From Kofleriaceae bacterium (GTDB taxonomy: Bacteria; Myxococcota_A; Polyangia; Haliangiales; Haliangiaceae): DNA of 64,000 nucleotides. Both the position numbers and the translations under genes were made by a program. The first letter of the stretch is position 1. Every line of letters starts with the position of its first letter. The DNA is taken from positions 1 to 64,000 of the forward strand of contig JANTGM010000005.1 in assembly GCA_024762925.1 (NCBI GenBank). Direction: 5' to 3'. Shown here in pieces: positions 46,550 through 52,078 of the stretch. The notes below the pieces were generated by a model. The model saw only the letters and a program-made list of their open reading frames with translations. It had not been told where the DNA came from and did not search any database.

Positions 46550-48160
46550 ATGTGCATGTACACTGCATTGGTGATTGGGCGTCTCTTCTCAGGCTTGGCC
46601 TGGCTGGTGCTACTTTGCTGTCTGGCGTGCGGCACCAAGGGGCCTCCGACAGACGAGGCTGCAACCCTGATTGTGGGCCGTGCCGCGGACGCAATTGGCC
46701 TCGATCCGGCGCGGGTAACCGACAACGAGTCGGTAGAAATCTGTGCCCAGGTCTATGAGTCGCTCCTGCGCTACCGCACGGGGACTACAGAGGTAGAAGC
46801 AGCGCTCGCTGTGGCCTGGGAGGTTAGTGAAGATGGTCGACAGTGGGATTTCACGCTGCGTGAGGGAGTGACCTTTCACGATGGAACTCCCTTAAATGCG
46901 GAGGCGGTCGTGTTCTCGTTCCGGCGCCAGCTCGACGAAAACCACCCGTACCATCTCACCGATTCGAGTGGCTTGGATTTTGGTTGGCGAGCCAACTACA
47001 AAAACATCGTATCGGTGGAAGCGACAGGCAACCGCACCGTGCGCATCACCATCGATCGAAAATTTGCCCCTTTCGCTGCCAACCTCGCCATGTTTCCCGT
47101 GGCCATTGTTTCTCCCAGTGCAGTCAAGGAGTGGGGCGAGGAGTACTACCGACACCCCGTGGGAACTGGCCCCTTCGCCTTTGGAGAGTGGAGTGATGGC
47201 CGAATCGTTCTCGAGCGCAACGCTCACTACTGGGGGGTGTTACCAAAACTCGCACGACTCATCTTCAAGGCGATTCCCGACGCTCGGCAGCGTCTTGTGG
47301 CTCTCGAGAGCGGTGCCGTCGATGTTGCGTATTCGATCCTCCCCGACGAGCAGCAGTTTGTGACGCTTCACCCCGAGCTGACGCTATATCGAGCCCCTGC
47401 GAACAACGTCTCGTATGTGGCGCTCAATACCCAGAAGGCTCCCTTTGACGATGTGCGGGTTCGACAAGCCGTCAATCGTGCAATCAACCGAGAACCCGTG
47501 GTCAAACTTGCCTACCAGGGTATGGCGATTCCCGCTGAGGGAGCTTTGCCGCCAACCCAATGGGGATATTCTCCTAAGAGTTTTGACTATGCCTACGACC
47601 CGATGCGTGCCAGGGACGAGCTTGAGGCCCTCGTCCTTGAAGGAGTGCTAGATCCCGACGAGGAAATCGCGTTCTTCGTGGCAACAACTCCACGACCGTA
47701 CTTGCCCAATCCAGGCATGGTGGCGCGCATTGTGAAGTCCAATCTCGAGGAGGTAGGGCTTCGAGTGAGGCTTGTTGAACAGGAGTTCTCGAGTCACCTT
47801 GAAGAGCTTCGCCGGGCCAAGCACCACATCAGCCTCATGGGATGGGTTGGCGACAATGGCGATCCCGACAATTACCTATATGTGCTCTTTGACAAGGACA
47901 ATGCAAAGCTCGGTCGTGCGCGCAATTTGTCGTTCTTGGTGGACGAGCCCCTTCACACACTGCTCTTGGAAGCGCAGCAGAGCAGTGAGCGGGCGACCCG
48001 CAGCGAAATCTACAAACGCGCCCAATCTCGAATTGGAGCGCTGGCACCATGGATTCCGCTGGTGCACTCACAGATCGCTGTGGTCGCGAGGGCGGATGTT
48101 CTCGGCATTGAGATATCGCCCGCCGGACAGGTGCTCTTCGAGAAGGTGGAGCGTCGGTGA
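46550..48160 (+). CDS. Orphan peptide-type solute-binding lipoprotein (SBP_bac_5)
   Basis: The 536-residue lipoprotein (signal ending CCLACG) is a family 5 binding protein. It has TLIVGRAADAIGLDPARVTDNES, the landmark GVTFHDGTPLNAEAVVFSF and PVGTGPFAFGEW. No transporter permease or ATPase is encoded nearby. Its stop overlaps the start of a membrane histidine kinase by four bases (GTGA), so the pair is co-translated and it may serve as the ligand-sensing partner of the kinase. The start is ATG 46550, with ATG 46556 in the same frame. Confidence 0.9.
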   Translation: MCMYTALVIGRLFSGLAWLVLLCCLACGTKGPPTDEAATLIVGRAADAIGLDPARVTDNESVEICAQVYESLLRYRTGTTEVEAALAVAWEVSEDGRQWDFTLREGVTFHDGTPLNAEAVVFSFRRQLDENHPYHLTDSSGLDFGWRANYKNIVSVEATGNRTVRITIDRKFAPFAANLAMFPVAIVSPSAVKEWGEEYYRHPVGTGPFAFGEWSDGRIVLERNAHYWGVLPKLARLIFKAIPDARQRLVALESGAVDVAYSILPDEQQFVTLHPELTLYRAPANNVSYVALNTQKAPFDDVRVRQAVNRAINREPVVKLAYQGMAIPAEGALPPTQWGYSPKSFDYAYDPMRARDELEALVLEGVLDPDEEIAFFVATTPRPYLPNPGMVARIVKSNLEEVGLRVRLVEQEFSSHLEELRRAKHHISLMGWVGDNGDPDNYLYVLFDKDNAKLGRARNLSFLVDEPLHTLLLEAQQSSERATRSEIYKRAQSRIGALAPWIPLVHSQIAVVARADVLGIEISPAGQVLFEKVERR

Positions 48161-50998: not shown

Positions 50999-52078
50999 AT
51001 GGAGCGCGACACCATTCTCTGCGTCGATGACGAAGAGGGCGTATTGCACGCACTCGAGCAGCAGCTCACGACCCGCTTTGGCAAGGATTGTGATATCGCC
51101 TGTGCCCAAAGTGGCGCTGATGCGCTCGAACTCATCGACGAACTCGAGCGAGATGGCGAGCAAGTTGCGGTCATCATCGCCGACCAAATCATGCCGGGCA
51201 TGAAGGGCGTCGATTTGCTCGAAGCGGTTCACACGCGCTCACCAGATACCGCAAAGATTCTACTTACCGGGCAAGCGGGGCTCGATGCGGTCATCGCCGC
51301 CATCAATCGCGCGGAACTCGACTTTTATTCGGCCAAGCCGTGGGATGAGGCGAACCTGCGGTTGGCGGTGGAGGGGCTTTTGCGCAGCTACCGGCTGGGG
51401 CAGGAGAACAAGCGTCTTGTCGCTGACCTCTACGCAAAGAACCAAGCGCTCTTGGAGATGAATCGGGACTTGGAGGCGCGCATCTCCGAACGTACGGGTG
51501 AACTCGCCGAAGCCAACACACGTCTGGCACAACTTGCTGTGACCGATGGCCTAACTGGGCTCTACAATCATCGTCACCTTCACGAGCGTCTTGCACTGGA
51601 GATTGAACGGTCGGCACGCAATGGATTGCCGCTCTCGCTTCTCATGATCGATGTCGACCACTTCAAGGCGTACAACGATCGGCACGGGCACCCAAAGGGA
51701 GACGAACTTCTTCGACAGCTTGCTCGCATCATGGGCGATGGAAGACGAGCCAATGACTTTGTGGCGCGCTACGGCGGCGAGGAGTTCGCGATTGTCCTAG
51801 TGGACACGCCAAAGTTCACAGCAGCTCAGGTGGCCGAGCGTCTTTGCGCCCGTGTTGCCGAATACCGATTTGATCATCGCGACGAGCAGCCGGGGGGCTT
51901 CGTGTCGGTTTCGGTTGGCGTCTCGTCATTTCCGGACGATGCCACCGAGGCGGAGAGTCTGGTCAGGCAAGCGGATGATGCGCTGTATCGCGCCAAACAC
52001 GCTGGTCGAAACTGCGTTGTCTTGGCCTCGCCTGTCGCCCCGCACAACTCCCATAGCGACAGCGATTCTTCAGAGTAG
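50999..52078 (+). CDS. Response regulator-diguanylate cyclase
   Basis: The 359-residue protein has a receiver domain (about 1-125; ILCVDDEEG, phospho-acceptor aspartate in VIIADQIMPGMKG, LLTGQA, SAKPWDE), a coiled coil and a GGDEF domain (about 195-340). The active site is GGEEF in ARYGGEEFAIVL and an inhibitory-site RxxD (RAND) lies five residues before it, so product inhibition is expected. It should make cyclic di-GMP when phosphorylated. The histidine kinase gene ends 85 bases upstream and is the likely partner. Confidence 0.95.
   Translation: MERDTILCVDDEEGVLHALEQQLTTRFGKDCDIACAQSGADALELIDELERDGEQVAVIIADQIMPGMKGVDLLEAVHTRSPDTAKILLTGQAGLDAVIAAINRAELDFYSAKPWDEANLRLAVEGLLRSYRLGQENKRLVADLYAKNQALLEMNRDLEARISERTGELAEANTRLAQLAVTDGLTGLYNHRHLHERLALEIERSARNGLPLSLLMIDVDHFKAYNDRHGHPKGDELLRQLARIMGDGRRANDFVARYGGEEFAIVLVDTPKFTAAQVAERLCARVAEYRFDHRDEQPGGFVSVSVGVSSFPDDATEAESLVRQADDALYRAKHAGRNCVVLASPVAPHNSHSDSDSSE

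Follow-up and report, generated by a model that had tools for sequence, protein, structure and literature searches.

A family-5 solute-binding lipoprotein, a dCache histidine kinase and a receiver-GGDEF protein that probably form a dedicated dipeptide-type co-receptor system controlling c-di-GMP

We analysed a stretch of 64,000 nucleotides of a Kofleriaceae bacterium (assembly GCA_024762925.1, contig JANTGM010000005.1, positions 1 to 64,000), hereafter the window, and found that three successive genes in it probably encode a dedicated dipeptide-type co-receptor two-component system that controls c-di-GMP, as judged from their sequences and those of their relatives. The genes specify, in this order: a solute-binding lipoprotein (SBP) of the SBP_bac_5 family, a histidine kinase, and a response regulator that combines a receiver with a diguanylate cyclase (Table 1). 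In the proposed mechanism the lipid-anchored, DppA-like protein would bind a dipeptide, or a ligand resembling one, in the periplasm, as its fold and two anchor residues suggest, and, serving no ABC transporter of its own, would dock on the kinase at its dCache domain, a step to which linkage and natural module swaps point. This docking, or undocking when the ligand binds, would then alter autophosphorylation at H605. The intact residues of the downstream partners are consistent with two further steps: the phosphate would move from H605 to D62 of the receiver, switching the GGDEF domain and setting c-di-GMP, and the cyclase may be subject to feedback inhibition at its RxxD site.

Table 1. Features of the cassette and its divergent neighbourhood (positions in the window)
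Feature	Position	Strand	Basis or remark
TRAP transporter with T-component (TAtT, DctP, DctQ, DctM), divergent	41874..46430	-	Pfam
Divergent intergenic region	46431..46549	.	Conserved single-copy element in two genera of the family
SBP_bac_5 (DppA-like) solute-binding lipoprotein, 536 aa	46550..48160	+	Pfam, solved relatives, lipobox
Predicted lipidated Cys27 codon	46628..46630	+	Cys position kept in orthologues
R382, equivalent to DppA R355 (dipeptide carboxylate)	47693..47695	+	Alignment to 1dpp; role from PMC8566422
D435, equivalent to DppA D408 (dipeptide amino group)	47852..47854	+	Alignment to 1dpp; role from PMC8566422
Histidine kinase, 918 aa, GTG start	48157..50913	+	ORF list, Pfam
Periplasmic dCache_3 sensor domain, residues 33-292	48253..49032	+	Between two TM segments
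HAMP (310-361), GAF (390-540), HisKA with H605, HATPase (808-909)	49084..50883	+	Pfam
Response regulator, receiver and diguanylate cyclase	50999..52078	+	Pfam GGDEF E 1.9e-48, Response_reg E 6.8e-16

The assignment of the first protein as an SBP_bac_5 lipoprotein, made earlier from the bare sequence, was borne out. In a Pfam search PF00496 covered it over its full length (E 1.7e-94, 317 bits with a gathering score of 32.4 bits, profile positions 1-366 of 368), and its N-terminus carries a lipoprotein signal, consisting of a hydrophobic segment (residues 7-25) followed by a lipobox with C27. The lipobox cysteine is kept in more than 95% of the aligned orthologues; the residue at position -3 is a Cys in the window protein, which is atypical. 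The residue at +2 is Asp in about two thirds of the orthologues and Gly in the window protein, and since the signal given by a Myxococcus study is a Lys at this position, the +2 Asp was set aside as a sign of inner-membrane retention. The nearest solved structures in a PDB sequence comparison were those of DppA and HbpA (E 2e-84 to 2e-83). The DppA equivalog of NCBIfam (NF043070) was not reached (292 bits; cut-off 1005), and around the gene no dppBCDF operon was found, with neither an ABC permease nor an ATPase gene adjoining.

In DppA the amino end of the dipeptide is held by D408 and the carboxyl end by R355 (PMC8566422). The corresponding residues of the lipoprotein are strongly conserved: R382 is Arg in 35 of the 36 aligned orthologues, and D435 is Asp in 35 and Glu in the remaining one. 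In the HbpA2 proteins D408 is replaced by Arg and dipeptide binding is considered excluded (PMC3295651). Because the two DppA anchors are conserved across the orthologues, our best guess is that the ligand is a dipeptide or a similar small zwitterionic peptide; the peptide-like ligand of the preliminary description thereby gains support, at the level of aligned residues.

The stop codon of the SBP gene (TGA, 48158-48160) and the start codon of the kinase gene (GTG, 48157-48159) share four bases, GTGA. Two transmembrane segments of the kinase (residues 14-32 and 293-311) flank the periplasmic sensor domain, which matches dCache_3 with 33.4 bits (cut-off 25.7); of the sensor-domain set, 17 of 23 members match at E 0.01. 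A profile of this domain had one match in the PDB, a weak one to a chemoreceptor domain, the single-sequence AlphaFold model reached a pLDDT of 47, too low for use, and named genomes, when searched with the sensor region as query, yielded solely a HAMP match, in an unrelated SAR324 contig. The H, N, G and F boxes of the kinase are conserved. Between the H-box and RIVGSLKSYSH, the first strongly conserved stretch after it, lie about 100 residues (residues about 640-740; 50074-50376), a spacing that is also seen in aligned relatives and is unusual for a HisKA kinase. The receiver-GGDEF protein has retained the phospho-acceptor D62, K113, the GGEEF motif (259-263) and an inhibitory site (R250xxD253) that is correctly spaced, five residues upstream of GGEEF, and all of these are conserved across 32 orthologues. 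Its gene is separated from that of the kinase by 85 bases in the window; in most relatives the two genes overlap at this junction. The three-gene cassette thus stands as originally outlined, with all three reading frames in place, the four-base overlap, and both active and inhibitory sites intact.

Whether the SBP and kinase genes are linked in relatives had been named beforehand as the first thing to check, and the linkage proved to be very well conserved. Of 56 genomes, 39 (that of the window being one of them) yielded a close SBP relative, and in these the best match to the kinase sensor adjoins it, except at contig ends. Both genes lie next to each other on 37 of the 39 relative contigs compared, always on the same strand, and the other two contigs are cut by the contig edge; over these 37 loci the predicted kinase start lies between -19 and +251 nt from the SBP stop. 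Contig ends aside, no close SBP relative without the kinase was found. When 379 genomes sampled across the phylum were searched with a profile of the sensor domain that was built without HAMP, 13 had a match, in one place each, and the SBP adjoins in all 13. Adjacency by chance, considered for the SBP and the kinase, is rejected by this conserved linkage and phylum-wide co-occurrence. The receiver-GGDEF gene is next after the kinase in 32 loci, the window included; it is absent at two loci that extend far enough (L094 and L095), and the other loci without it end at a contig edge. The gene for GpsA, a frequent downstream neighbour, was not counted as part of the cassette because it is on the other strand in one locus (L075).

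Adjacency alone is no proof of interaction, since the P. aeruginosa neighbours PA0602/AgtB showed no binding to AgtS when tested (PMC11113362). The evolutionary distances of SBP and sensor were correlated, with a partial correlation of 0.47 when kinase core, cyclase and GpsA were controlled (26 related loci, no significance test) and of 0.65 when DctP was controlled as well (19 related loci, no significance test). The features by which an SBP-coupled sensor kinase can be recognised, gene linkage and co-inheritance with the sensor, were both found.

Two natural module swaps bear more directly on which parts belong together. In one genome (G036) the kinase is kept from HAMP onward (43% identity over residues 343-914 of the window kinase), as is the receiver-GGDEF protein (59% identity); before residue 343 the kinase differs, its sensor having no significant similarity to that of the window, and beside it no SBP gene is found, the preceding gene encoding a Ser/Thr kinase. 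Two other genomes (G041 and G049) keep the SBP, the sensor and the kinase (29% identity over the whole kinase for G041) and have no receiver-GGDEF orthologue at E 1e-70; in both, the kinase is directly followed by a gene of the CstA family, of which the E. coli member is a peptide transporter and also a pyruvate importer (PMC5847655). Taken together, the swaps indicate that the SBP accompanies the sensor and that the cyclase accompanies the transmitter, a pattern that is predicted by the co-receptor model and not by a merely shared operon. The coupling of lipoprotein to sensor and of kinase to cyclase, as put forward in the preliminary description, is therefore well supported by adjacency, co-occurrence and the two swaps, while contact between the proteins and phosphotransfer are inferred.

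That description had also called the lipoprotein one without a transporter, which holds locally, as no ABC permease or ATPase gene adjoins; elsewhere in the genome Dpp/Opp-type permeases do occur. The window's genome has 7 SBP_bac_5 and 10 permease-domain matches, among them a DppB-DppC pair near an M1 peptidase (contig C24, 43735-45500; L125:5736-7498). Small ligands are often bound directly by dCache domains, so that the SBP could be an accessory. In one alternative the lipoprotein would be mainly a transport SBP for a Dpp permease encoded elsewhere, the dCache domain would sense a small ligand directly, and the adjacency would reflect shared regulation. The C24 pair, beside which no family-5 SBP was seen among the proteins scanned, would fit such a role, as would the wide distribution of relatives of its DppB in the class. 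These relatives, however, occur with or without the cassette: they are present in three genomes that lack close relatives of the cassette SBP (G036, G044 and G052), and no DppB match was found in three that carry the cassette (G039, G041 and G045). In G041 (92% complete) the only two permease-domain genes are MalF-like and MalG-like; allowing for assembly gaps, this genome has the SBP-kinase pair without a detectable Dpp/Opp permease. As, in addition, close SBP relatives without the kinase were not found and replacement of the sensor in G036 coincides with the lack of an SBP gene beside the kinase, we regard a primary role in transport as unlikely.

In another alternative the lipoprotein would work for a permease and for the kinase alike. 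Vibrio offers an example: its CBP belongs to the chitobiose ABC transporter as SBP and at the same time represses ChiS (PMC5519180). The DppBC proteins would be available for this in the window's genome, but the case of G041 argues against such a dual role as well, and the annotated loci showed no permease gene adjoining the cassette, so that we give it a rather small chance. The Vibrio example also bears on the sign of the regulation within the co-receptor model. CBP represses ChiS until a chitin oligosaccharide binds (PMC5519180), and a permanent membrane tether would suit a standing repressor; the apo or the loaded lipoprotein might likewise hold the kinase off, as a negative regulator. Other SBP-kinase pairs are activated by the loaded SBP, as is the case for BctC-BctE (PMC9602780), and we put the repressing variant clearly below an even chance.

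The TRAP genes that are transcribed divergently from the cassette, and that the preliminary description had passed over, are its neighbours in 27 loci, the window included, which might imply that the sensed solute belongs to this transporter and that DctP, rather than the family-5 SBP, informs the kinase. The TRAP neighbourhood was found in the window's family and, elsewhere in the order, in a single genome from another family, whereas several other families keep the SBP-kinase pair without an adjoining TRAP homologue, and the DctP distances do not track those of the SBP (partial correlation -0.53; 19 related loci, no significance test). DctP as the true partner of the kinase was rejected on these grounds, and that it informs the kinase is very improbable. 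In relatives from two genera of the family, the region upstream of the cassette SBP gene contains an element, CTAAGTSAGYGAANGNNRRGAGTCAA (L134-L142). A search of 10 genomes found it in 9, in a single copy that always adjoins the start of this gene; the window retains only GTGTCAATCG of it, at 46518-46527. It is possibly an operator or promoter of the cassette.

Returning to the preferred co-receptor model, its most far-reaching form would be that in about ten families a DppA-type protein has left transport altogether and serves a dCache kinase as an obligate co-receptor tethered to the membrane, that the availability of dipeptides sets c-di-GMP, and that one family has recruited a TRAP transporter, along with the binding protein belonging to it, into this circuit; we hold this tentatively, at somewhat less than an even chance.

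Other SBP_bac_5 genes were encountered in the same genome. Contig C20 carries a second pair, of an SBP (L111:5735-7216) and a HAMP-HisKA-HATPase kinase (L111:7376-9127), and the same type of adjacency was seen in about 13 relatives when SBP positions were compared with kinase HAMP matches, so that the pairing of a family-5 SBP with a kinase recurs in this lineage. The window itself encodes a further SBP_bac_5 protein (29205-31193, 662 aa), in which the family match begins at residue 224. Its downstream neighbour encodes an MgsA_C-domain AAA ATPase and not a transporter.

The assertion that such a pairing is unusual for family 5 was overstated: both CBP-ChiS of Vibrio and dipeptide chemotaxis in E. 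coli are precedents, and receptors that respond to a family-5 SBP were known before. Cluster C of the SBPs is presumably the family-5 or DppA-OppA type. The Vibrio CBPs fall in this cluster (PMC10667598, PMC8449061), and CBP-ChiS is like the window system in that a cluster C SBP controls a sensor kinase (PMC5519180, PMC10667598). T. maritima 4PFY has been placed in the subcluster of CBP (PMC8449061), and the PDB sequence entry shared by it matches the window SBP at E 6.8e-20. The differences from the proposed system are that CBP works for an ABC transporter and has oligosaccharides as ligands, and that ChiS is an orphan DNA-binding hybrid kinase without a diguanylate cyclase partner. The E. 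coli pair, which we take to be DppA-Tap, resembles the proposed system in that a binding protein loaded with dipeptide acts on a membrane-spanning receptor, in this case a chemoreceptor (PMC6321045). Apart from the kind of receptor, DppA-Tap differs from the window system in that DppA also serves DppBCDF and in that the output is not c-di-GMP.

Receptors driven by SBPs are a general phenomenon in which many SBP families take part, and SBPs can feed c-di-GMP enzymes, cyclases as well as phosphodiesterases (PMC9602780). The pairs LuxP-LuxQ, TorT-TorS, XylFII-LytS and BctC-BctE resemble the window system in that a sensor kinase has exclusive or shared use of an SBP, and differ from it in that their SBPs are of other families and, for BctC-BctE, in that the output is gene expression. 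Gene expression is also the output of LuxP-LuxQ, TorT-TorS and XylFII-LytS. In NspS-MbaA an SBP of a polyamine family acts with a single GGDEF-EAL membrane receptor, whereas the path in the window system would run via a histidine kinase and a receiver-GGDEF protein; the latter has the hallmarks of the PleD/WspR kind (receiver Asp/Lys, GG(D/E)EF and an intact I-site).

According to a review of c-di-GMP sensing, SBP_bac_3 was the only periplasmic-binding-protein domain that had been studied in such networks (PMC8846402), and a peptide-type input through family 5 would therefore add a new signal class. The cassette makes the question whether an extracellular peptide is a cue for c-di-GMP directly testable and, if the model is true, would exemplify plainly the conversion of a transport binding protein into a subunit that only senses, with the swaps revealing which parts belong together. 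Set against the known systems, it appears to be a conserved sensor of a known kind that brings no new principle, with a lipoprotein that appears to have been freed from nutrient transport; what is new is that a lipid-anchored SBP, apparently with no transporter to serve, is combined with a dCache kinase and c-di-GMP output, an arrangement kept over many families together with its swaps.
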